Positions 32,933-62,520 of a stretch of DNA of 64,000 bases are shown here, one piece after another (positions within the stretch are counted from its first letter, which is position 1; each line of letters opens with the position of its first letter). This stretch comes from Myxococcales bacterium (GTDB lineage: Bacteria; Myxococcota; Myxococcia; Myxococcales; JAKAPL01): assembly GCA_021783235.1 (NCBI GenBank), contig JAJXUD010000003.1, positions 1-64,000 of the forward strand, given 5' to 3'. The notes beneath the pieces were generated by a model. The model had not been told where the DNA came from and did no database searches. It was given only the letters and a program-made list of their open reading frames with translations. Made by a program: the position numbers and the translations under genes.

Positions 32933-33580
32933 CTAGGGCGCGAGCAGGAGCCGCCGCTCGAGGACGAAGTGGCAGGCGCTCGCCGCGATGACGAGCGCGT
33001 GGAAGATCTCGTGGTAGCCGAAGACCTTCGGGGCGGGGTCGGGCCGCCGCAGGGCGTAGATGACGGCCCCCGCGACGTAGAGCAGCCCGCCGCCGAGGAG
33101 GAGGGAGAGGCCGCTGACGCCGAGCGCCGCCGAGAGCTTCGGCAGGGCGATGGTGACCGCCCAGCCGAGCGCCACGTAGCCCGCCGCCGAGACGAGCCGC
33201 GGGGCCTGCACCCAGAGGATCGACTGGACGATCCCGAGGGCGGCGCCACCCCAGGCGACCCAGAGGAGCGCGACGGCCCAAGGGTGCGGCAGCGCGAGCA
33301 GGCAGACCGGCGTGTAGGTGCCGGCGATGAAGAGGTAGATGGTCGCGTGGTCGAGCCGCCGCATGAAGCGGCGCGCCGTGGGGCCCCAGGTGGGGCGGTG
33401 GTAGAGGGTGCTGATGCCGAACATCGCCGCGAGGCTCGCGCCGTAGACCGCCGCTGCCGTCGTCGCCCGCGCGCCGTGCGCCGACGCGACGAGGGCGATG
33501 GCGCCGGCGGTGGCGACGACGAAGGCGATTTCGTGAGAGACGCCGCGCAGGAGCGGCTTCGGACGCGCGCTGGGAGGCAT
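32933..33580 (-). CDS. hemolysin III / PAQR family membrane protein
   Basis: About 215 residues from the ATG at 33580; longer in-frame starts exist at 33592 and 33628. Seven hydrophobic segments with the family metal-site residues: LSHE-like GVSHEIAF, GISTLYHRP, RRLDHATIYLFIAGTYTP, and GYHEIFHALV near the C-terminus. These His/Asp/Ser residues form the zinc site in PAQR proteins. Despite the name, haemolytic activity is not established for most members; a role in membrane fluidity or lipid sensing is more likely. Confidence 0.88.
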   Translation of the reverse strand: MPPSARPKPLLRGVSHEIAFVVATAGAIALVASAHGARATTAAAVYGASLAAMFGISTLYHRPTWGPTARRFMRRLDHATIYLFIAGTYTPVCLLALPHPWAVALLWVAWGGAALGIVQSILWVQAPRLVSAAGYVALGWAVTIALPKLSAALGVSGLSLLLGGGLLYVAGAVIYALRRPDPAPKVFGYHEIFHALVIAASACHFVLERRLLLAP

Positions 33581-33653
33581 GCGCTTCACGCTAATTCCGC
33601 GAACGGTCGGCGCCTTGACGGCGATCAAAGCCGAGCCCTCGCGACGCGGCTGG

Positions 33654-34280
33654 TCAGATGTCGATGAGGTGGCCGTGCCGCCGCTTCTTCGCCGTGAGGT
33701 AGGCGTGGTTGTGCGGCGTCACCGCGCCCGGGGCCGGGACGCGGCTGCGGATCGACAGGCCGTGGGCCCGCAGCTCCTCGACCTTGCGCGGGTTGTTCGT
33801 CATCAGGTCGATGGGGCCGACCTCGAGCTGGCAGAGGATCTCGGCGGCCACGTCGTAGCGGCGCAGGTCGTCCGGGAAGCCGAGCCGCCGGTTCGCCTCG
33901 AAGGTGTCCGCGCCCTGCGCCTGGAGCGCATAGGCGCGGACCTTGTTTCCGAGGCCGATCCCGCGCCCCTCCTGCCGCAGGTAGACCAGCACGCCCGCGC
34001 CCGCCTCGGCGATCCGGTCGAGCGCGAGGTCGAGCTGATCGCGGCAGTCGCACTTGAGGCTGCCGAAGACCTCGCTCGTCAGGCACTCCGAGTGGACGCG
34101 CGCGAGGATCCCCTCCGGGCGCCGCACGTCGCCGAGGGTCAGGGCGAGGTGCTCCAGCCCGCTCCCGGGCTCCCGGAAGACCCGGATCTGGAACGTGCCG
34201 CGCCGCGTCGGCAGGGGCGCGTCGGCGTAAGCCTCTACGATGACAGACTTTTTCTCTTGCGCGGAGGCGCACTTCGCCAT
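33654..34280 (-). CDS. ribA: GTP cyclohydrolase II
   Basis: 208 residues from the ATG at 34280 (AGAGGTGG ribosome site; an in-frame start at 34331 lies within the promoter). Zinc ligands are in HSECLTSEVFGSLKCDC, and RQEGRGIGL and MTNNPRK are the GTP-binding and catalytic motifs. It converts GTP to the first pyrimidine intermediate of riboflavin. Unlike many bacteria it is not fused to DHBP synthase (RibB), which is absent from the window. Confidence 0.95.
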   Translation of the reverse strand: MAKCASAQEKKSVIVEAYADAPLPTRRGTFQIRVFREPGSGLEHLALTLGDVRRPEGILARVHSECLTSEVFGSLKCDCRDQLDLALDRIAEAGAGVLVYLRQEGRGIGLGNKVRAYALQAQGADTFEANRRLGFPDDLRRYDVAAEILCQLEVGPIDLMTNNPRKVEELRAHGLSIRSRVPAPGAVTPHNHAYLTAKKRRHGHLIDI

Positions 34281-34302
34281 GAGCCACCTCTCCCTCCCGG
34301 AC

Positions 34303-34331
34303 TCTATAGGAGCCGGGCTGCGAGGCGTCAA
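34303..34331 (-). promoter_or_regulatory. strong sigma70-type promoter of ribA
   Basis: On the minus strand TTGACG (34331-34326), a 17-base spacer and TATAGA (34308-34303). The predicted start is near 34296, leaving a leader of about 16 bases with the ribosome site. The leader is too short for an FMN riboswitch. Confidence 0.7.
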
Positions 34332-34356
34332 CCGAACCCGCCGTTTGGAGCAGGCC

Positions 34357-34605
34357 CCGGCTCAGGGCAGCTCGAGCCCGAGGTTCGAGTTCAGGACCCA
34401 GCCGCCGCTCGCGCGGGTGAGCGGCTGGCCCAGGCCGAAGTTCAGCTCGACCTTGGGCCAGCGGTAGACGTCGAGGGTGTAGACGAGCAGATGCTGCTGG
34501 GCGGCGAGCGGCTCGAGCGGCTGGACGTCCGGCGGGATTCGGTCCCAGGCGTCCTTCTTCACCACCGTCGCCCCGGTGAGCATGCCCCAGTCGAGGTTCA
34601 GCATG
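34357..34605 (-). pseudogene. chimeric fragment: outer membrane protein 3' end joined to a dctP internal piece
   Basis: Bases 34357-34519 are identical to 35786-35948 (C-terminal 53 codons and stop of the outer membrane protein gene), and 34520-34605 are identical to 36787-36872 (codons inside dctP encoding LNLDWGMLTGATVVKKDAWD and neighbours). Order and orientation are as in the intact locus, but the 838 bases between (35949-36786) are missing. The join keeps an open frame, so a hybrid peptide is possible, but it lacks any signal peptide or complete domain. It looks like a duplication with an internal deletion. Confidence 0.9.
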
Positions 34606-34616
34606 CAGGGCGTGGT

Positions 34617-34755
34617 GACGGACATCTGGATGCGCCCGTAAGCACAGGAGGTTGCGCGCGATCTCGACGCGCCTCGTGCGGCCTCCGGCGTATCATCTTG
34701 GACGCGGCGCACGGTGGCACGGGGAGGCGGGGTCGTCCGTCACCGGCCGCGCTTC
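34617..34755. repeat. left copy of a diverged direct repeat flanking the toxin-antitoxin pair
   Basis: About 139 bases aligning, with few gaps and roughly 80-85 percent identity by eye, to 35451-35589 (offset 834). The best conserved block is GCGCGATCTCGACGCGCCTCG. It begins 12 bases after the end of the dctP fragment. Bases 34756-34847, down to the toxin stop, hold nothing recognisable. Confidence 0.75.
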
Positions 34756-34847
34756 CCTGATGCGGAGAGAGCCGAGCAGCGATGGCCAGGGAGTCCGACG
34801 CGCCGTGGTCCCGACGACGAGATCCTCATCGAGACGGGCCGTGGGGA

Positions 34848-35129
34848 TCACTCGAAAAGTTCGGCGTGCGATCCCAGACGAACGAGTTGGAGCACGTCGG
34901 CGGTCGGCTTCCGGTAGATCAGCACGAGGTCGGGGCGCAGGTGGCAATCACGGTGGTCCCGCCACTCGCCCATCAACGGATGGTCACGGTTCGATGCCTG
35001 CAGCGCCTGGTCGCCTGCCAACCGCCCGACCACCTCGGCCAGCAGCCGGTCCAGCACCTTGCCGTGTCGCCCCGCCTTCTCTCTCTTGTGGTCCCGGCGG
35101 AAGGCCGTGGTGTGCTCAATCCTTCGCAT
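34848..35129 (-). CDS. yafQ: YafQ-family mRNA interferase toxin
   Basis: 93 residues, the length of YafQ/RelE-type toxins. It starts IEHTTAFRRDHKRE, as these proteins do. The active-site region has NRDHPLMGEWRDHRDCHL and PDLVLIYR, and the end GSHAELF matches the conserved His and Phe of E. coli YafQ. Such toxins cut mRNA on the ribosome when the antitoxin is lost. It overlaps the antitoxin gene by 14 bases, the usual antitoxin-first order. Confidence 0.9.
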   Translation of the reverse strand: MRRIEHTTAFRRDHKREKAGRHGKVLDRLLAEVVGRLAGDQALQASNRDHPLMGEWRDHRDCHLRPDLVLIYRKPTADVLQLVRLGSHAELFE

Positions 35130-35379
35130 TCAGATCCGCGAGCAGGCCGGACACCGAACGGGACGCGCGCAGCTTGCCCTTGCGCGCCTCCTCCATCGCC
35201 GCTCGGGTCTTCGCGTTGGGGACTCTGAGCTCGAAGGGCAGTGCCTGCTCGGCGGCCACCCGCGTGAGCAGGACGCGCACGGCGTCGGACACGGAGAGCC
35301 CCATCGCCGCGAGCGCCTTCTCTGCACGCGCCTTGACGCGCTCGTCGAGCCGGACGTGAACCATGGTGCTGGTGGCCAT
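35116..35379 (-). CDS. dinJ: DinJ/RelB-family antitoxin
   Basis: From the ATG at 35379 the product has 87 residues; a TTG three codons upstream is also in frame. VHVRLDERVKARAEKAL begins the ribbon-helix-helix DNA-binding half, MGLSVSDAVRVLLTRVA the helix pair, and ALPFELRVPN is the DinJ signature that leads into the toxin-wrapping tail. It should neutralise YafQ and repress its own promoter. Confidence 0.92.
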   Translation of the reverse strand: MATSTMVHVRLDERVKARAEKALAAMGLSVSDAVRVLLTRVAAEQALPFELRVPNAKTRAAMEEARKGKLRASRSVSGLLADLNAKD

Positions 35380-35381
35380 GC

Positions 35382-35415
35382 GAGACAATGTATCTCAGGG
35401 CCCAGGTGCCCGCAA
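35382..35415 (-). promoter_or_regulatory. toxin-antitoxin promoter with overlapping palindromic operator
   Basis: Minus-strand TTGCGG (35415-35410), 17 bases, TACATT (35392-35387). The predicted start is 0-2 bases before the antitoxin ATG. An imperfect palindrome, GAGACAATGTATCTC (35382-35396), covers the -10 and the start, where an autorepressing ribbon-helix-helix antitoxin would be expected to bind. Confidence 0.55.
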
Positions 35416-35450
35416 CCACCGCGAAGCCTCCGCGCGGGCGCGTCGAGGGT

Positions 35451-35589
35451 GTCGGACATCTGGAATCTACGGTGAGCACAGCAGGTCGCGCGCGATCTCG
35501 ACGCGCCTCGCGCGGACTCCGGCGTCTCGTCCTCGGACGCGGCGGACGGTGGCACCGGGATGCGGGGTTGTCCGTCGCCGGCCGCGTTT
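35451..35589. repeat. right copy of the diverged direct repeat flanking the toxin-antitoxin pair
   Basis: Pairs with 34617-34755 in direct orientation. Between it and the outer membrane protein gene (35590-35785) there is about 200 bases without a gene or recognisable signal. Neither copy shows the inverted core sites of an integron attC. Confidence 0.75.
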
Positions 35590-35785
35590 CACACGCAGCG
35601 GGGTGACCATTCGGTCGATCCGACGCCAGAGGCGGCCGATTGCGTGGCAGCTCCGGCGCTCGGCCGTTCAGGGGTTGGTCAATCGGGCGTAGAGCGCCTC
35701 TTGTGAGGGAGCCATGCCTTCTCGTCGGCTGCCCCGATGAGAAGGCGTCGTCGCTCACCGCGTTCACCAGCCGAGCGAGAGCCGG

Positions 35786-35948
35786 CCGGCTCAGGGCAGC
35801 TCGAGCCCGAGGTTCGAGTTCAGGACCCAGCCGCCGCTCGCGCGGGTGAGCGGCTGGCCCAGGCCGAAGTTCAGCTCGACCTTGGGCCAGCGGTAGACGT
35901 CGAGGGTGTAGACGAGCAGATGCTGCTGGGCGGCGAGCGGCTCGAGCG
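35786..35948. repeat. 163-bp exact direct repeat (intact-locus copy)
   Basis: Identical to 34357-34519. The two copies flank a 1.27-kb segment containing the dctP fragment and the toxin-antitoxin pair. Homologous recombination between them would delete 1429 bases and leave the outer membrane protein gene intact. Confidence 0.92.
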
Positions 35949-36435
35949 ACGGGAAGAGGCCCAGGTCGGAGTAGTACTCGAGGCCGAGGGCGCTGTCCCA
36001 GGCCACGACGCAGTTCGCCTTGGCGGCGGGCTCGAAGCTCGGCGCCGCGAAGGGCGAGAGCGCGAGCCCGATGATGGGGTTCAAGATGGCTCGGCAGCGG
36101 CCGAACTCCTTGAACAGGATCGGTCGGATCTCGCCCGCCCAGGGCGGCTCGCCGGAGCGCGGGTCGCTGCGCCCGACCTCGATGTTGAGCGCCGCCTCGA
36201 ACGGCCAGGCGCCGGGGGCGATGCGCCCCTTGAGCCGCAGCTTCGCGCCCTCGAAGAGGTAGCTGCCGTTCGGCCAGAGGGAGCTCTCGAGGTAGGCGCC
36301 GAGCTCGACCTGCTTCCAGAGGCCGACCTGCGGCTCGAGCGTGGCGTGGAAGAGGCTCGGGTCGAGCGCCCCGGACGACGGGGAGAGGCCGCTGCCCGCC
36401 GCTCCCGGGTGGGCGATGAGGTGCCCCTCGATCAT
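35791..36435 (-). CDS. TRAP-locus outer membrane protein (start codon unclear)
   Basis: The ATG at 36435 gives 214 residues, but the frame is coding further upstream. Codons up to about 36540 spell a clear signal peptide (VALAALALCATGSARA, then LDPFELQVYDAE), yet no ATG, GTG or TTG occurs before a TGA. The start is therefore non-canonical, or the frame joins dctP by a +1 shift at its stop. The mature protein alternates short strands with aromatic residues, like a barrel, and ends NSNLGLELP. It follows dctP directly and probably passes the TRAP substrate through the outer membrane. Confidence 0.75.
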   Translation of the reverse strand: MIEGHLIAHPGAAGSGLSPSSGALDPSLFHATLEPQVGLWKQVELGAYLESSLWPNGSYLFEGAKLRLKGRIAPGAWPFEAALNIEVGRSDPRSGEPPWAGEIRPILFKEFGRCRAILNPIIGLALSPFAAPSFEPAAKANCVVAWDSALGLEYYSDLGLFPSLEPLAAQQHLLVYTLDVYRWPKVELNFGLGQPLTRASGGWVLNSNLGLELP

Positions 36436-36541
36436 CGTCTCGCCCGGGGGGAGGGTCTCGGCGTCGTAGACCTGCAGCTCGAACGGATCGAGCGCGCGGG
36501 CGCTTCCGGTCGCGCAGAGCGCGAGCGCCGCGAGGGCGACT

Positions 36542-37543
36542 CTACTGGTGTTGCGCGCGGTACTCCTCCACCAGCCGCTTCACCTCGTCGAAGAGGTCGG
36601 CGGGGACGACCTTGCCGCGGACGACGCTCCAGCTCCGCCGCGCGGCGGCCTTCCAGCCGGCGACGTCCTCGGGCTGATCGATGACGAGGCCCTGGGCCTT
36701 CATCTGCTTTTCGGCGTCGTCGTTCATCTTGCGGACCTCGTCCGAGAGCTTCTTGCCGCTCTCCGCGGCGATGGCGAGGAGCTTCTGCTGGACGTCCGGC
36801 GGGATTCGGTCCCAGGCGTCCTTCTTCACCACCGTCGCCCCGGTGAGCATGCCCCAGTCGAGGTTCAGCATGTGGTTCGCCCGGTCGAAGAGGCGCGAGG
36901 CGAAGGCGTAGAGCGCCGGCATCGAGACCGTGTTGATCATCCCCGTCGAGAGCGAGGGGATGATGTCCGTCGAGGAGAGGACCACCGGCTGAAAGCCGAT
37001 CTTGATCCAGGCGTCGGCCGCCGACGGATCGCCCTGCCACGACCAGATCTTGGCCTTGGCGGCGTCGGAGGGCTTTTTCAGCGGGAAGGTGGAGAAGAAG
37101 CGGATGACGCCCACGTTCGCCCAGTTGACGGCGACGAAGCCCTTCGCCTCGAGCGCCCGCTCGAGCCGAGGCCGGATCTTCGCGAGGACGTAGTCGAGCT
37201 CGGCCTCGCTCTGGAACAACATCGGCGCGTCGAGCGTCTGCGGCTCGGGCGTGATGTCGTGCATGCCGACCGTGGTCAGCGAGGCCGCCTGGAGCTGGCC
37301 CACGCCGATCTTGCGGACCATGTCGCCCTCGTTGCCGGCGACGCCGCCCGGGTAGATGCGGACCTTGACGAGGCCGCCCGAGGCCTCCGTCCAGCGCCGC
37401 CCCATCTCCTGCAGGAGGACGTCGTACGGCGACCCCTGGGGCGCGACGGTGCCGAGCTTGATGAGGACGGTCGCACGGGCCGGGGCGGCGGAGAGCAGGG
37501 CTCCGGCGAGGGAGACGACGAGAGGCCAGGCGATGCGCTTCAT
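36542..37543 (-). CDS. dctP: TRAP transporter substrate-binding protein DctP
   Basis: 333 residues from the ATG at 37543 (AAGGAG ribosome site). Signal peptide ends SAAPARA. The mature protein begins TVLIKLGTVAPQGSPYDVLL, as DctP proteins do, with RIYPGGVAGNEGDMVRKIGVGQ in the middle. It is a periplasmic binding protein for a carboxylate or related solute. The usual Arg contacting a carboxylate is not certain here, so the substrate is open. It lies between tatT and the outer membrane protein gene in a three-gene leftward unit. Confidence 0.92.
   Translation of the reverse strand: MKRIAWPLVVSLAGALLSAAPARATVLIKLGTVAPQGSPYDVLLQEMGRRWTEASGGLVKVRIYPGGVAGNEGDMVRKIGVGQLQAASLTTVGMHDITPEPQTLDAPMLFQSEAELDYVLAKIRPRLERALEAKGFVAVNWANVGVIRFFSTFPLKKPSDAAKAKIWSWQGDPSAADAWIKIGFQPVVLSSTDIIPSLSTGMINTVSMPALYAFASRLFDRANHMLNLDWGMLTGATVVKKDAWDRIPPDVQQKLLAIAAESGKKLSDEVRKMNDDAEKQMKAQGLVIDQPEDVAGWKAAARRSWSVVRGKVVPADLFDEVKRLVEEYRAQHQ
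36787..36872. repeat. 86-bp segment of dctP copied at 34520-34605
   Basis: Exact copy of the second half of the chimeric fragment. The junction shows no microhomology: the base after the first segment and the base before the second segment both differ from the chimera. Confidence 0.9.
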
Positions 37544-37566
37544 TCCCACTCCTTCTGCGTTGGGTC

Positions 37567-38472
37567 CTACAAGAACAGGTCGTCGACGCGTCCGAGCAGC
37601 CACTTCGCTCGTCGTTGGGCGAGCACGTTCTCGAGCCGGTTCGGGCGGGCGTCCGGGCGGTCGACGTCGAACTCGAGGACCCGGTCGAGGAGCTTCACGA
37701 AGCCCACCCTGTCCTGCGCCGGGACGAGGAGGTTCTCGGCATACGAGACCTGCAGCCCGAGCCGGGTGCCGTGGTCGAGCGCGAGGGCGCGCTCGTAGTG
37801 CTTCTTCGCGTCGTCGGCCTTGCCGCGGGCGGCGTCGAAGGAGACGAAGAACTCGTGGAGCGTGCCGCCGTCCCAGTCGGGGTCGAGCGCGAGCGCCCGC
37901 TCGGCCAGGTCGGCGACCGCCGGGAGCTGGCCGATCATGGCGACGTCGGACTTCGAGTCGGAGATCGCGAGCCCCCAGGCGGCGGCGGTCCAGTACAGGT
38001 CGGGCACGTCCGCGGCCACCGTGCCCGCGAGCGCCTTGCGGCGCGCCTGGGCGTCGGCCGCGAGGAGCGCTTCGCGGAGCCCCGCGTGGTCGACGTCGAG
38101 CGCCCGCAGCCCGTAGCCGCGCGCGCGGAGGAAGAGCTTGCGCGCCCGCTCGTGGAGCGCCTGCGCGCGGGCCGGATCCCCGGCTTCGTCGCCGGGCTCC
38201 TGCACGAAGGCGTAGGCGTAGCCCGTGAAGCCCGAGTCGAGGGCGCGCAACAGCTTCTCGTGGCGCGGTAGGTCGGCCGCGAGGCTCTCCATCAGCTTGA
38301 GCGCGAAGGGGAGCGCCTCGCCGACGAGCTCCGGGTCGTCGTCCGACTGGAAGGTCCCGCCCGTGCCGGTCGCGAGCGAGCTCGCGAGCGAGTTCTCCGC
38401 GAGGTTGGTCGGCGAGCAGGCGGAGAGCGAGGCCGCGAGGCCCGCTGCCAGGCCAATCGCGATCTGTTTCAT
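37567..38472 (-). CDS. tatT: TRAP-associated TatT-type lipoprotein
   Basis: 301 residues from the ATG at 38472 (GTG at 38481 also in frame). Lipobox LAASLSAC. The rest is all-helical with TPR-like pairs (ALPFALKLMESL, YGLRALDVDHAG, HYERALALDHG). This matches the T component of TRAP-associated systems, described in Treponema as a TPR trimer that docks the substrate-binding protein. Its position just before dctP supports this. Confidence 0.85.
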   Translation of the reverse strand: MKQIAIGLAAGLAASLSACSPTNLAENSLASSLATGTGGTFQSDDDPELVGEALPFALKLMESLAADLPRHEKLLRALDSGFTGYAYAFVQEPGDEAGDPARAQALHERARKLFLRARGYGLRALDVDHAGLREALLAADAQARRKALAGTVAADVPDLYWTAAAWGLAISDSKSDVAMIGQLPAVADLAERALALDPDWDGGTLHEFFVSFDAARGKADDAKKHYERALALDHGTRLGLQVSYAENLLVPAQDRVGFVKLLDRVLEFDVDRPDARPNRLENVLAQRRAKWLLGRVDDLFL

Positions 38473-38490
38473 CGACGGCACGGGGCGGTG

Positions 38491-38519
38491 CTATAAGGGA
38501 CGGCCCCGAAGCTGGTCAA
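38491..38519 (-). promoter_or_regulatory. promoter of the tatT-dctP-omp unit
   Basis: Minus-strand TTGACC (38519-38514), 17 bases, TTATAG (38496-38491). It lies in the 73-base gap to the divergent dctQM. Predicted start near 38484. No equally good promoter is seen for dctQM. Confidence 0.65.
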
Positions 38520-38545
38520 CCAATTCTTCCGAGCGCTTGCCCACC

Positions 38546-40423
38546 GTGACCGCGACCCTCGACCCCCAGCCGCCGGACCTCGCCGACTCCGCTGGTCCCC
38601 AGAGATCCGACGGAGGCCACGGCACGCGGGCCGAGGGGCTCCTCGTCACGGCGATCCTCCTCTGCATGACGGCGCTGCCGGTCGCCCAGGCGCTCGCCCG
38701 CAAGCTCTTCCACGCGGACCTCGCCGGGGCGGCGGTCTACGTGCAGCACGGCACGCTCTGGGTCGGCTTCTTCGGCGCGCTGCTCGCGACGGGGCAGGGC
38801 AAGCACCTCGGCCTCTCGGTGGCCGAGCTTCTCCCGGCCGGCAAGCCGCGGCTCTTTGCCCGCGTCTTCTCGGCCATGGTGACGACGGCGGTCCTCGCGC
38901 TCCTCTGCTACGCGGCCGTCGAGCTCGTGAACGCCGACCGCGTCCGGCAGGACGTGCTCGCGGGCGGCATCCCCGAGTGGTGGAGCGAGCTCGTGATGCC
39001 CGCGGTCTTCGCGGCCATGGCGCTGCGGACGGCCTGGCTCGCCCCCGGGGGCTGGCTCGGCCGCGCGCTCGCGCTCCTCGCGGTGCCGCTCGCCTTCGCC
39101 ATCGGCCTCGCCGCGAATCACCCGGATCCCTTCGTCTGGCCGGTCGTCGTCGTGCTCCTGCTCTCCTTCCTCGTCGGCGCGCCGGTCTTCGTCGCGATGG
39201 CGGGCGTCGCGATGCTGCTGTTCTTCGCCGAGGGGACGCCCATCGCGGCGGTGCCGACCGAGACCTTCAGGCTCGTCGCCTCGCCGACGCTGCCCGCGAT
39301 CCCGCTGCTCACGCTCGCGGGCTACGTCCTCTCCGAGGGCGGCGCGGCGAAGCGGCTCGTCGCCGCCTACCAGTCGGTCTTCGGCTGGATGCCGGGCGGG
39401 CTCGCCATCATGGCGGTCTCGGTCTGCGCCATCTTCACCACCTTCACGGGAGCCTCCGGCGTCACCATCCTCGCGCTCGGCGGACTGGTCCTGCCGGCCC
39501 TCGTCAAGGAGGGCTACCCGGAGGGCTTCTCGCTCGGGCTCGTCACCGCCTCCGGCTCGCTCGGCCTCCTCTTCCCGCCGTCGCTGCCGGTGATCCTCTA
39601 CGGGGTGGTGGCGGGCGTCGCCATCGAGCGGCTCTTCGTCGGCGGGCTCGTGCCGGGCGCGATCATGATCGTGCTCGTCGCCGCCTACGGCGTGGTCGCG
39701 GGAGTCCGCGCCAAGGTGCCGCGCCACCCCTTCGACGCGAAGAAGGCGCTGCGCGACCTCTGGACCGCCAAGTGGGATCTCGGCTTGCCCTTGCTCGTCA
39801 TCCTCGCCGTGGCGAGCGGCTTCGCGACGATCACCGAGGCCGCCGGCATCGCCTCCGCTTACGCGCTCATCGTCGAGATCTTCGTCTTCCGCGAGCTCGA
39901 TCCCTGGCGGCAGCTCCCGCGCGTCATGGCCGACGCCGCGACGCTCGTCGGCGCGGTGCTCATCCTGCTCGGCGTCGCGCTCGGCCTCACGAGCTACTTC
40001 GTCGACGCCCAGATCCCCGAGGCGCTGCTCGGCTGGGTCACGGCGCACATCCACTCCCCCGAGCTCTTCCTGCTCGCCCTGAACGGGCTCCTCCTCGTCC
40101 TGGGATCGGTGCTCGAGATCTACTCGGCCATCGTGGTGCTCGCGCCCCTGCTCGTGCCGCTCGGAAACGCCTTCCACATCGACCAGATCCACCTCGGCGT
40201 CGTCTTCCTCGCGAACCTCGAGCTCGGCTTCCTCTTCCCGCCGATGGGGCTGAACCTCTTCCTCTCGGCGCAGCGCTTCGAGAAGCCGCTGCCCGTGCTC
40301 TACAAGCGGGCGCTGCCCTTCCTCGCCATCATGGCGTTCGGCGTCCTCGTCATCACCTACGTGCCCGCCGTGACCACCGGAGTCGTCAGCCTCCTGCTGC
40401 CGCACCCGGGCGCGGCTCGCTGA
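38546..40423 (+). CDS. dctM: fused TRAP transporter permease (DctQ-DctM)
   Basis: 625 residues from the GTG at 38546 (an in-frame TTG at 38537 is possible). The first 175 residues are the small four-helix DctQ subunit. The remainder is the large DctM permease, with FTTFTGASGVTILALGGLVLPALVKEGYPEGF and LGLLFPPSLPVILYGVVAGV marking the conserved permease motifs, and NLELGFLFPPMGLNLF near the end. It forms the sodium-driven importer for the solute bound by DctP. It is divergent from tatT-dctP rather than in one operon. Confidence 0.92.
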   Translation: MTATLDPQPPDLADSAGPQRSDGGHGTRAEGLLVTAILLCMTALPVAQALARKLFHADLAGAAVYVQHGTLWVGFFGALLATGQGKHLGLSVAELLPAGKPRLFARVFSAMVTTAVLALLCYAAVELVNADRVRQDVLAGGIPEWWSELVMPAVFAAMALRTAWLAPGGWLGRALALLAVPLAFAIGLAANHPDPFVWPVVVVLLLSFLVGAPVFVAMAGVAMLLFFAEGTPIAAVPTETFRLVASPTLPAIPLLTLAGYVLSEGGAAKRLVAAYQSVFGWMPGGLAIMAVSVCAIFTTFTGASGVTILALGGLVLPALVKEGYPEGFSLGLVTASGSLGLLFPPSLPVILYGVVAGVAIERLFVGGLVPGAIMIVLVAAYGVVAGVRAKVPRHPFDAKKALRDLWTAKWDLGLPLLVILAVASGFATITEAAGIASAYALIVEIFVFRELDPWRQLPRVMADAATLVGAVLILLGVALGLTSYFVDAQIPEALLGWVTAHIHSPELFLLALNGLLLVLGSVLEIYSAIVVLAPLLVPLGNAFHIDQIHLGVVFLANLELGFLFPPMGLNLFLSAQRFEKPLPVLYKRALPFLAIMAFGVLVITYVPAVTTGVVSLLLPHPGAAR

Positions 40424-55244: not shown

Positions 55245-55735
55245 GGTTCCTCGCTGCCCCCGGAATGAGCCGAAAAACTCGCTGCTGCCGCACGCGTCTT
55301 TTCCGCGATGAGCCTATAGTCGATCGCGGGACTTTTGGCCAGCCCGACGCCGAGCCGGGCCCAAGTGGGTAACGCGGCGACGCGACCGTCCCGTCCCCGA
55401 ACGGGGTCCACCCGGCACTTCGCGCCCCCCTTGGCCGGGACCGGCGGTGCTCCCGTGCGCCGAACGCCGTGATCTCCCGGGGAGCAGTTGGCCGGATGGG
55501 CCGAGCAGGGGCTCGCGTTCGCGGGGTTGTTCAGATCGCGAAACGTCAGGACGGCGGGTCCCGTTCGGCGTGGGTTCGGGAAGTTGCGAACGCAGGCTCC
55601 CATGGCGGCGCATGGATCGAGCATGCGAAGCCCATGGCAGAGCGGCGCCGCGGCGCCTCTGGGGGCACTTTCCGCGCCTCGGTGGTGGGACTTGCCGAGG
55701 GCCTTCTCGGCCCCCACCTTTCGGGCACGCCCACC
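55245..55735. other. intergenic region between korA and the first paralogous lipoprotein gene
   Basis: About 490 bases without a convincing gene. The left part holds the presumed korA promoter. Bases 55581-55637 are similar to 56964-57020, and 55674-55735 are the 5' part of the 200-bp block shared with 58356-58556. Both matched blocks lie upstream of paralogous lipoprotein genes. Confidence 0.6.
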
Positions 55736-55874
55736 ATGCGCACGCATTCCAGCCTCGCGGTGTCGCTCCTCCTCGCCGCCTGCGGCCGGTCGGTGGTCTA
55801 CGAACCACTCCCTCCGCCGGAGACGCCGGAGATTCCCTCCGAATTGCCCGAGCAGTGTCCGCCCCCGCCGCCCC
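55674..55874 (+). repeat. 200-bp near-identical block, first paralogue copy
   Basis: Matches 58356-58556 (offset 2682) with only a few differences. It covers about 60 bases upstream of the ATG, the whole signal peptide and the proline-rich segment to the CPPPPP run, then identity ends abruptly. Confidence 0.9.
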
Positions 55875-56956
55875 CGAGCCCATCGCCTCCCCCACCGGGC
55901 TCGCAGCTCACGCAGATCTGGAGCCGCTCGATCGAGCCGTCGACGGCGATCGGCCTCGATGCCGAAGGGCGGATCCTCTCCGTCTCCTCGTCGGGCACCC
56001 TTCGGACGTACGACCCGGATTCGGGCGCGCTCCTCGCCAAGGGCCCGGCCCCCTTCGACGCTCTTCCGCAGTACTCGCCCACCGGCGACGCCATCGTGAT
56101 CTCGGGGGGCCAGGGATCGCCGACCGTCCACCACCGCCGTTGCGGGACCGGCCATTGGACTGACCTACCGATCACGGATGCGGCCTGCGGGTGGTCGGCC
56201 GGCTGCCAGGGATCCATCTCCTCGGATGGCGGTCGCCTGGCGGTCGCCGCATTCGACAGGATCGTCATCGTGGACCTCGGGACCGACGGGGTTGACCGCG
56301 AACTCGTGAGCAGCTCCTGGCCGATCGGTGCGGTCGCATGGGGCTTCGACGGGCGGCTGTTCGCCCTGATCAGCAGCCACGGCGCAGACCAAGTCTTTGC
56401 CGGCCATCCGCTGACCCTTCCCATCGAGCCCGCGGTGACGCTGGTGTCCCTCGATCCGGACTTCAACCTCCAGTGGGCCAGCTCCATGGTCGGCGTCTGG
56501 TTCTCGCCCTTATGGTGGCCAGGAGCCTCCATTCAACCGATCTTCGATGGCTCAATCATCGCTGCGGGGGGCGTCGAGGGGTCGGGCACCTGGGGCTCGA
56601 CCCCCGTTGGTGCCCCGGTTCAGGTCGACAACTGGGGAATCAGGAACACCCTGATCGGCGGTTTCTTGATTGCCGCAGGTTCGAATGGCAGGCCGCTCTG
56701 GGGCAGCCTGAGCGGCGCTCTTGGAACGGGCTCAAATGGGGTGAGCCTCACGGTTGGACCACCATTTTACTACGACGACATCTCGGCGCTCGGATCGGAT
56801 GGCGCCCCATTGGGTGACAGCGTGTCGCTTCCGTTCAAGGCCCTGGGCGGAGCGGCCGCTTTGTTCACCCCCACCGGGCGCGTCTATTTCGAGGCTGTCA
56901 CAGTTGACGGAACTGACAGGCCGGCATTGCTGACCGCCTTTCAGCTAGAACGGTGA
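55736..56956 (+). CDS. propeller-like lipoprotein, paralogue A
   Basis: 406 residues from the ATG at 55736. Lipobox VSLLLAAC, then a Pro/Glu-rich segment (PPPETPEIPSELPEQCPPPP). The mature part looks like a beta propeller: repeated short strands such as DAEGRILSVSSSGTLRTYDPDSG, ISSDGGRLAVAAFDRIVIVDL and LVSLDPDFNLQWAS. RRCGTGHW with other cysteines suggests disulfides. It shares its start, signal and several motifs (HHRRCGT, SSDG) with paralogue B at 58418 but is otherwise diverged. It is unusually rich in A/T for this window towards the 3' end, hinting at a transferred or relaxed gene. Confidence 0.7.
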   Translation: MRTHSSLAVSLLLAACGRSVVYEPLPPPETPEIPSELPEQCPPPPPPSPSPPPPGSQLTQIWSRSIEPSTAIGLDAEGRILSVSSSGTLRTYDPDSGALLAKGPAPFDALPQYSPTGDAIVISGGQGSPTVHHRRCGTGHWTDLPITDAACGWSAGCQGSISSDGGRLAVAAFDRIVIVDLGTDGVDRELVSSSWPIGAVAWGFDGRLFALISSHGADQVFAGHPLTLPIEPAVTLVSLDPDFNLQWASSMVGVWFSPLWWPGASIQPIFDGSIIAAGGVEGSGTWGSTPVGAPVQVDNWGIRNTLIGGFLIAAGSNGRPLWGSLSGALGTGSNGVSLTVGPPFYYDDISALGSDGAPLGDSVSLPFKALGGAAALFTPTGRVYFEAVTVDGTDRPALLTAFQLER

Positions 56957-57016
56957 ACTCGAGAAGTTGCGAATGCAGGTTCCCATGGCGGCGCAGGGCT
57001 TGAGCAAGCGCAGCCT

Positions 57017-57330
57017 ATGGACGAAGTCGATCGGGGGGCCTTCGTCGAGAGATCGTTCTGTCCGAGAGGCGCGATCCCGAGCCACCTCGCGGACCCGGGC
57101 AGCGACCACGGCGCCTTCGTGGACGACTTCGCGCGGGTGGCGCCGGGGCAGCCGAGCGCATCGGGCCGGGGAACGTGCTCCACTTCTCGCGCAACCTCGC
57201 GGTGCCGCGGGTGGAGCTGCTCTCGGCGCACGCCTTCCGCGACTCGCCGCCGGGCGACGACGTGCTCGCGATGCGGGTGGGCGAGGGCGAGGCGCTGCGC
57301 GCGGCGCGGCGGCTCATCGAGCGGGTGGGA
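57017..57330 (+). pseudogene. remnant of an unrecognised gene, probably frameshifted
   Basis: Codon-position composition is gene-like first in the frame starting at 57017 (SHLADPGSDHGAFVDDFA), then from about 57160 in the next frame (IGPGNVLHFSRNLAVPRVEL, then DDVLAMRVGEGEALRAARRL). The switch without a stop suggests a lost base in an old coding sequence. It then runs into the tandem repeat. I do not recognise the family. It lies inside the extra DNA upstream of paralogue B. Confidence 0.4.
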
Positions 57331-58070
57331 GAGCCGACACGGCTGCGAGCGCTGCCGCTCCTACTCGTGCCGCTGCCGACACGGCTGCGAGCGCTGCCGC
57401 TTCTGGTCGTGCCGCTGCCGCCACGGCTGCGAGCGCTGCCGCTTCTGGTCGTATCACTGCCGATACGGCTGCAAGCGCTGCTGCTCCTACTCGTGTCGCC
57501 GCCGCCACGGCTGCGAGCGCTGCCGCTTCTACTCGCGTCGCTGCCGGCACGGCTGCAAGCGCTGCCGCTTCTGGTCGTAGCACTGCCGATACGGCTGCAA
57601 GCGCTGCCGCTCCTACTCGTGTCGCCGCCGCCACGGCTGCGAGCGCTGCCGCTTCTGGTCGTATCACTGCCGATACGGCTGCAAGCGCTGCCGCTCCTAC
57701 TCGTGTCGCCGCCGCCACGGCTGCAAGCGCTGCCGCTTCTACTCATGTCGCTGCCGCCACGGCTGCAAGCGCTGCCGCTTCTGGTCGTAGCACTGCCGAT
57801 ACGGCTGCAAGCGCTGCCGCTCCTACTCGTGTCGCCGCCGCCACGGCTGCGAGCGCTGCCGCTCCTACTCGTGCCGCTGCCGACACGGCTGCGAGCGCTG
57901 TCGCTCCTACTCGTGTCGCTGCCGATACGTCTGCGAGCGCTGCCGCTCCTGCTCGTGTCGCTGCCGATACGTCTGCGAGCGCTGCCGCTCCTGCTTGTAT
58001 CGCTGCCGACACGGCTGCGAGCGCTGCCGCTTCTACTCGTGTCGCTGCCGATACGTCCGCGAGCGCTGCC
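57331..58070. repeat. 42-bp minisatellite, about 17.5 copies
   Basis: Imperfect head-to-tail copies of a 42-base unit, each containing GGCTGCGAGCGCTGCCG or a close variant. Because the period is divisible by 3 and stops are rare, long open frames occur on both strands; one forward frame reads ADTAASAAAPTRVA units and another LRALPLLLVPLP units. None has a credible start and signal, so I treat it as a non-coding or uncertain repeat. Confidence 0.85.
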
Positions 58071-58152
58071 GAGCTCTCGGAGGAGGCCGCCGCTCGCGCG
58101 CAGGGCGGCGCTGCTTGCGCTCGTGCCGCCGCCGCGCTCGCGGCCTCCTCCG

Positions 58153-58350
58153 CTGATCGGCGGAGTCGCGCGGCCGATCGGTCGAGTGGGGCTGCTGATC
58201 CGCCGAGTCGCGCGGCTAATCGGTCGAGTGGGGCCGCTGATCGGCGGAGTCGCGCGGCTGATCGGTCGGGTGGGGCCGCTGATCGGTGGAGTCACGCGGC
58301 TGATCGGCCGAGTGAGGCCGCTGATCGGCGGAGTCACGCGGCTGATCGGC
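58153..58350. repeat. 21-bp tandem repeat, about nine copies
   Basis: Alternating 21-base half-units CTGATCGGCGGAGTCGCGCG(G) and CTGATCGGTCGAGTGGGGCC(G) make a 42-base higher-order period, the same length as in the array 80 bases to the left. It ends six bases before the block shared by the two paralogous lipoprotein genes. Confidence 0.85.
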
Positions 58351-58355
58351 CGCCC

Positions 58356-58556
58356 GCGCCTCGGTGGTGGGACTTGCCGAGGGCCTTCTCGGCCTCCAGC
58401 TTTCGGGCACGCCCACCATGCGCACGCGTTTCTGCCTCGCGGTGTCGCTCCTCCTCGCCGCCTGCGGCCGGTCGGTGGTCTACGAGCCACTCCCTCCGCC
58501 GGAGACGCCGGAGATTCCCTCCGAATTGCCCGAGCAGTGTCCGCCCCCGCCGCCCC
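58356..58556 (+). repeat. 200-bp near-identical block, second paralogue copy
   Basis: Copy of 55674-55874. In this copy the upstream matching stretch (56964-57020) is separated by about 1335 bases of repeats and gene remnant, instead of 37 bases as in the first copy. Confidence 0.9.
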
Positions 58557-62149: not shown

Positions 62150-62520
62150 GGGCCATTCCCTCGAAGACGACGAGCTCTCCCTCGGAGGAAGAGTGCTTTG
62201 CCTCGAAGGGAACGACCATTTCCTCCGAGGAAAAGTGCTTTGCCTCGGAGGGAACGACCATTTCCTCCGAGGAAAAGTGCTTTGCCTCGGAGGGAACGAC
62301 CATTCCCTCGGAGGAAAAGTGCTTTGCCTCGAAGGGAACGACCATTTCCTCGGAGGAAAAGTGCTTTGCCTCGGAGGGAACGACCATTTCCTCCGAGGAA
62401 AAGTGCTTTGCCTCGGAGGGAACGACCATTTCCTCGGAGGGAAAGTGCTTTGCCTCGGAGGGAACGACCATTCCCTCGAAGGAAAAGTGCTTTGCCTCGG
62501 AGGGAATGGTCGATGGGGAC
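62150..62520. repeat. 42-bp hairpin-forming tandem repeat, eight copies
   Basis: The core GTGCTTT recurs at 62193, 62235, 62277, 62319, 62361, 62403, 62445 and 62487, exactly 42 bases apart. In several units CCTCCGAGG and CCTCGGAGG flank a 12-base loop (perfect 9-bp stem), and GGAGGGAA pairs with TTCCCTCC or TTTCCTCC around CGACCA. Minus-strand units read MVVPSEAKHFSSEE, but no credible gene start or signal is present. The rest of the gap 61907-62813 holds no gene that I can support. Confidence 0.88.

Follow-up and report, generated by a model that had tools for sequence, protein, structure and literature searches.

A toxin-antitoxin pair and an exact two-piece copy of neighbouring gene fragments between ribA and dctP in a Myxococcales bacterium

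The locus considered here lies in a 64,000-nucleotide stretch (hereafter the window; contig JAJXUD010000003.1, positions 1 to 64,000, of assembly GCA_021783235.1 from an uncultured Myxococcales bacterium), between the gene for GTP cyclohydrolase II (ribA) and a pair of genes of which one encodes a solute-binding protein of a TRAP transporter (dctP) and the other, called omp below for convenience only, encodes a protein belonging to no named family. Intervening between ribA and the end of omp are 1429 bp (34357-35785), which consist of an exact copy of two separate pieces of omp and dctP, designated X' and Y', and of a 1180-bp segment, designated P, that carries a dinJ-yafQ toxin-antitoxin pair. 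The copy and P together are a rearrangement scar of a known and ordinary kind, confirmed at the level of the sequence, and a single faulty repair of a DNA break is the explanation to which we would give somewhat better than an even chance.

The exact copy and its sources

The copy, its sources and the genes around them are arranged as follows.

34357 to 34519, no strand: X', exact copy of 35786-35948 (the end of omp plus 5 bp)
34520 to 34605, no strand: Y', exact copy of 36787-36872 (within dctP), abutting X' without a common base
35786 to 35948, no strand: X, source of the 163-bp copy
36787 to 36872, no strand: Y, source of the 86-bp copy
34362 to 34712, minus strand: open frame of 116 amino acids, running in frame from the repeat R1 (see below) via the piece of dctP into the end of omp
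33654 to 34331, minus strand: ribA, GTP cyclohydrolase II (Pfam PF00925, 8.8e-62; NCBIfam ribA)
35791 to 36540, minus strand: omp, protein without a named family (no Pfam or NCBIfam match)
36542 to 37543, minus strand: dctP, TRAP transporter solute-binding protein, full-length match (Pfam DctP, 5.4e-36; NCBIfam TRAP_S1, 1.7e-84)

As read directly from the DNA by an exact-match scan, X' is 100% identical to X over 163 bp at a spacing of 1429, and Y' is 100% identical to Y over 86 bp at a spacing of 2267; a separate repeat search put both pairs at the same places and stretched the X/X' match to 169 nt at 99%. The 838 bp lying between the two sources (35949-36786) are absent from the 249-base copy. 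Where X' meets Y', the omp source would continue with A and the copy has G, while the dctP source is preceded by T and the copy again has G, leaving zero bases common to both sources, so that an earlier note on this DNA, made from the letters alone, was right in describing an exact chimera joined without microhomology. It had also called the event recent, which the absence of mismatches (0/249) bears out only as far as a divergence of at most 1.2% (95% bound), as gene conversion could hold the copies identical just as well. Its further wording, an internally deleted copy of an “outer-membrane” region, implies a duplication followed by a deletion, which would need more coincidences than one template-switching repair, and the outer-membrane label for 35791-36540 found no backing in Pfam or NCBIfam, a secreted or outer-membrane location of the omp product being a guess.

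The 163-bp direct repeats flank dinJ-yafQ at full identity and appear long enough to recombine; as that note had pointed out and as the repeat layout bears out, homologous recombination between them would remove 1429 bp, including the toxin-antitoxin pair. The 116-amino-acid frame, which showed nothing but a weak, sub-cut-off TRAP_S1 match in NCBIfam, is probably not a gene.

How unusual such a copy is was assessed in 738,226 bases (the window and 40 further stretches, about 16% of the 4,576,448-base genome), scanned for two exact direct pieces lying side by side, both 40 bp or longer and more than 300 bp from their sources, with repeat words of at least 30 copies omitted. Besides the present locus, two such joins were found, both of them within tandem-repeat arrays; single local exact direct repeats of at least 60 bases, on the other hand, are not rare in these bases.

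The inserted segment and its affinities

Segment P comprises the following features.

34606 to 35785, no strand: P, 1180 bp (R1, yafQ, dinJ, R2 and a 195-bp tail), without a second copy in its own genome
34614 to 34756, plus strand: R1, left copy of a 143-bp diverged direct repeat, its left edge 4 to 9 bases past the end of Y'
34848 to 35129, minus strand: yafQ-type toxin gene, RelE/YafQ family (Pfam YafQ_toxin, 1.4e-26; YafQ relatives in the PDB)
35116 to 35388, minus strand: dinJ-type antitoxin gene, RelB/DinJ (Pfam RelB, 1.1e-18; NCBIfam RelB_DinJ above cut-off)
35448 to 35590, plus strand: R2, right copy, 85% identical to R1

The pair has the gene order of type II YafQ-DinJ systems, with dinJ directly upstream of yafQ and overlapping it by 14 bp, and both products match their families over nearly their full lengths; it resembles that family in order, overlap and family matches and departs from it in that the toxin, while above the cut-off of NCBIfam RelE_StbE, stays below that of the YafQ model TIGR00053 (62.1 vs 87.25 bits). 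The toxin blocks DHPL, RDCHLRPD and RLGSHAELF, examined for catalytic residues, which they may hold, are carried with changes by solved relatives (RECH in 4/5 chains compared; GSQSDLF in 9lew). PADLOC gave no match, and no gene besides the pair, a replication gene included, was recognised in the segment.

Nested inside the exact 163-bp repeats, and absent from the earlier note, are R1 and R2, whose longest exact shared stretch is 23 bases. As they are just 85% identical, against 100% for the patchwork, they would be older than it, unless the two copies came separately. A repeat family of the bacterium's own genome was rejected as their source, since no further full copy was found there and the other matches were just internal ones of 26 and 22 bases (E 0.001 and 0.007). 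Weak relatives of the R1 edge turned up instead in G001, one of the two same-family genomes discussed below: a 20-base piece of that edge, with at most 3 mismatches, occurs there at 36 places vs 8 for the reversed control, compared with 11 vs 10 in the own genome (G000) and 13 vs 9 in the other same-family genome (G002). With R1 as the search sequence, G001 gave seven weak matches, the best with an E of 7.7e-5, and in five of them the left edge of R1 was covered; G000 had two short internal matches and G002 one. When scored with a matrix derived from 20 G001 sites, which themselves score 36.7-52.4, R1 reaches 29.8 and the next best place in the 64 kb 10.3; in alignments made without a control, R1 pairs with one G001 repeat (L144) over about 75 bases and R2 over about 37. 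The G001 sequences concerned form a dispersed repeat (20 loci, L134-L153) whose consensus from 20 aligned sites is ACGCGGTGACGGACAACCGGATTCGC; some copies bear GGTTGCGCGCGATCTCG, like R1, a motif which alone is not specific.

Several other features of these repeats were examined. The block GGTNGCGCGCGATCTCG, seen in R1, R2 and some of the G001 repeats, is not specific when taken alone (places with at most 2 mismatches vs the control: own genome 188 vs 49; G001 106 vs 23; G002 119 vs 48). At the right end of P, a match to an inverted end of the G001 repeat looked suggestive by eye but scored 23, which the background of 636 windows, reaching 24, also attains. A structured RNA was dismissed, as R1 and R2 do not fold beyond expectation (z between -1.38 and +1.03); Rfam had no match in 33500-37700. 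The R1 end motif, GGTGACGGAC / GTCCGTCACC, has nine matches in the 64 kb, and four of these correspond to the ends of the two repeats; in a generic test of inverted pairing of 15-mers, however, R1 did not rise above background, 91/300 random spots pairing as well (at least 11). The same can be said of a target duplication: the longest direct match within 8 bases of the ends of P is 6 bases (CAGGGC), that around R1-R2 is 4 bases, and 44/300 random places give a direct match of at least 6. The ends of R1 and R2 are presumably also unlike the 38-bp ends of Tn3.

Taken as a whole, P probably came from outside this lineage, a judgement that draws on sequence comparison: the window dinJ is 93% identical at the DNA level to a stretch of contig C11 of G001, whereas dctP is just 74-76% identical to its G001 counterpart, and the relatives of the R1 edge lie in the same genome. 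The search of P against 195 genomes of the phylum matched 48 of them, the own one included, the longest matches being to toxin-antitoxin genes in G001, G006, G046 and G120 and most others being short. Plasmid cargo was rejected as an identity for P, as the 140 matching plasmid records do so at 60-80% identity, and the 20 matches listed cover at most 42% of P, with toxin-antitoxin genes as their annotated features; phage cargo was likewise rejected (one weak phage record). Viral contigs held two distant antitoxin relatives, and an exact 34-base piece of X was in none of them. The last 50 bases of the tail (window 35735-35786) match a locus in another genome (L061, G158) at 83% over 54 bases (E 3e-7), whereas nothing similar to the tail was found in the own genome, the best other match having an E of 0.13. 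The L061 stretch is part of an open frame that looks metallo-hydrolase-like by eye.

The old junction, the insertion and its rivals

Comparison with relatives, which the earlier note had recommended, was possible with 60 related genomes; two of these, G001 (94% complete) and G002 (69% complete), belong to the same family, and no same-genus genome is among them. In both same-family genomes ribA directly adjoins dctP, the matched stretches being 130 bp (G002) and 275 bp (G001) apart; blocks TATAG and GTCAACC (about 34303-34334) are aligned between the ribA flanks of the window, G001 and G002, and the window flank tracks that of G002 to about 34350, a few bases short of the join at 34356. Because of this adjacency and of an alignment reaching nearly to the join, ribA|omp is probably the original junction, into which the 1429 bp were newly inserted, and the suggestion in the earlier note that a deletion would restore the locus thereby gains support, though not proof.

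The insertion of 34357-35785 at this old boundary, where the region upstream of ribA met the omp end, would have run as follows if it came about through faulty break repair. A DNA break would have occurred at ribA|omp; synthesis from the ribA side would then have copied 163 bases of omp on the sister copy (X'), jumped to position 36787 in dctP and copied 86 bases there (Y'), and proceeded into, or been ligated to, a foreign 1180-bp P that already held dinJ-yafQ and the older repeats, whereupon end joining would have linked P, at 35786, to the omp side of the break. We infer this order and the template switching from the outcome, i.e., an exact two-piece copy and a toxin-antitoxin pair inside a 163-bp direct repeat through which both could be lost again by homologous recombination. 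Any scheme must account for three new joins (X'|Y', Y'|P and P|omp) as well as for the copy starting at the very point where P meets omp; a break at the ribA|omp boundary makes the copy start exactly there, whereas duplication followed by deletion is less economical, because P would have to land exactly at the duplication border. End-joining genes are present in the genome, those for Ku and the LigD polymerase being seen side by side on its contig C72, and end joining would accord with the lack of microhomology at the join.

A number of observations speak against this account or weaken its parts. The alignment beside the 34356 join is short and GC-rich, so that it supports an old junction and does not prove it; omp is absent from both same-family genomes (no match anywhere in either), for which reason the ancestral ribA|omp join is itself inferred, and G002 is just 69% complete. 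Neither the 60 related genomes nor the search of 195 phylum genomes contained a same-genus genome, and hence an empty-site strain. As for a foreign P, its GC content (69.2%) is ordinary, 24% of 1180-bp windows being as low or lower; among the matches listed from phylum genomes, plasmids and phages none covers it, so that no donor for the whole of P was found; R2 does not fit the matrix of G001 sites (score 3.9); and at the G001 dinJ locus R1 and R2 had only chance-length matches of 17-20 bases.

How far the printed order can be relied upon depends on the assembly. Contig starts recur in other contigs over 125-127 bases (three pairs and one further 127-base contig-end match), which suggests a short-read de Bruijn assembly with k=127. 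At that k the 86-bp piece is bridged by k-mers, and the X'-Y'-P path thus needs real reads, whereas the graph would branch at the 163-bp repeat. The integrated form and an empty site accompanied by a circle would therefore give the same graph, and the printed order presumably reflects how the assembler used paired reads. A 1429-bp circle (X'-Y'-P) that formed first and was integrated by homologous recombination within the 163 bp, perhaps coexisting with the chromosome, would yield exactly the order seen and would presumably be indistinguishable in the k=127 graph; it seems rather unlikely nevertheless, as all three joins would be required before integration, P has no recognised replication gene and the assembler presumably had paired-read support through the repeat. 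That the patchwork is an artefact of assembly or library preparation, absent from the organism, is harder still to credit: the assembly is admittedly a draft of 133 contigs, but three false joins would be required, reads would be needed across each of them if k was 127 (the 86-bp piece being shorter than k), and outside tandem arrays the scanned bases held no other two-piece join.

The joins might also be of different ages, P having already lain between ribA and omp when just the 249-bp patchwork was inserted at ribA|P as repair filler. This is consistent with the sequence, and the tail contains a hairpin (about 35717-35747) that could stem from what once lay downstream of omp; yet the start of the copy 5 bp past the omp stop codon would then be chance, as would its meeting a ribA flank that ends about where that of G002 does, and no terminator was found in 34200-35900 (nor did a promoter scan of that region find anything). 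A weak match of the tail|omp join to another locus (L199; 80% over 49 bp) does not lie at an omp gene there and was taken as noise, because equally good matches to the fetched loci (E at most 2e-4) were obtained with 24/100 pieces of 310 bp taken at random from the window. Such a filler is therefore regarded as improbable, about as much so as the circle. It is similarly hard to hold, to the degree that an artefact is, that selection keeps the arrangement, the pair killing or halting cells that lose the segment: toxin and antitoxin do appear nearly complete by their family matches, and the principle is documented for MvpAT in passages of PMC5629016, but with no other gene recognised in the segment the pair would guard itself alone, and a recent event would leave the copies identical just as well if no selection were at work. 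The most elaborate possibility, and a very improbable one, is that X'-Y'-P is a small mobile unit, i.e., a toxin-antitoxin pair between two miniature repeats which, together with the captured host patchwork, leaves and re-enters as a 1429-bp circle via the captured homology, with the toxin enforcing retention.

Known systems and neighbouring observations

Chromosomal toxin-antitoxin loci have reportedly been considered in connection with genome reduction (by Szekeres, in 2007), and the general principles involved here, selection by such loci against deletion included, are already published. When MvpAT was moved beside a pathogenicity island of the Shigella plasmid pINV, that region was lost less often, which its authors put down to “post-recombinational killing” (PMC5629016); the likeness to the present locus is a toxin-antitoxin pair that would be lost if the direct repeats on either side of it recombined, while there the repeats are insertion sequences and a large region is guarded, and here the repeat is a patchwork scar, with the predicted pair as sole cargo. 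Composite elements bounded by two miniature elements, described as TIME-COMP transposons in PMC4133298 and reportedly also in PMC13367494, recall the R1-pair-R2 layout in having two direct, short, non-coding repeats around a short core without a transposase; R1 and R2, by contrast with TIME-COMP, are just 85% identical and come with no clear target duplication or demonstrated mobility. Homology-facilitated illegitimate recombination, as reported in PMC3240628, likewise joins one end of an insert by homology and the other without, but does not alone make a two-piece copy of recipient DNA.

What the locus would offer is a clean, recent example of a toxin-antitoxin pair entering a chromosome with a scrambled copy of neighbouring genes as the scar of repair, in an organism encoding Ku and LigD. 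Moreover, a natural 163-bp direct repeat around a pair with no further recognised cargo is a minimal setting for asking whether such a pair can, by itself, prevent its own deletion.

Concerning the flanking genes, the start codon of ribA is possibly further in, at 34279. Matches to omp were found in 21/147 genomes of the class, the own one included, with no dctP match in the 27 omp loci of other genomes (L081-L108, L101 excepted, with at most about 1.5 kb of flank). Loci L005-L040 gave no omp match (E 1e-4) and L196-L203 none better than E 0.28; scans of named genomes confirmed 0/11 candidate stretches for omp and found dctP in eight relatives. Beyond dctP, in 37567-40423 of the window, a gene for a TRAP T-component (37567-38481, minus strand) adjoins a plus-strand frame for a fused DctQ-DctM, which is oriented away from dctP and omp.

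In G001, no toxin was detectable in the 5 kb around the dinJ relative on contig C11; beside the end of this toxin-less gene (L036, 1990-2480) there is a stretch of about 190 bp with inverted ends like CCGTCTTATTCACGG, which is present in further loci of that genome, too. On its contig C45 (L109, 2070-2942), a gene pair that we take to be HEPN-MNT-like ends, on the downstream side, with a motif resembling the edge of R1. Elsewhere in the window, short tandem arrays, spaced at multiples of 42 bases, occupy 57338-58010 and 62192-62442, and exact direct repeats of 41-70 bases at a constant spacing of 2682 bases (55672-58556) are perhaps duplicated genes. The longest exact direct repeat in the sampled 738 kb, 1054 bases in copies 2635 bases apart, is on contig C15 of the own genome (L170, 3455 / 6090).

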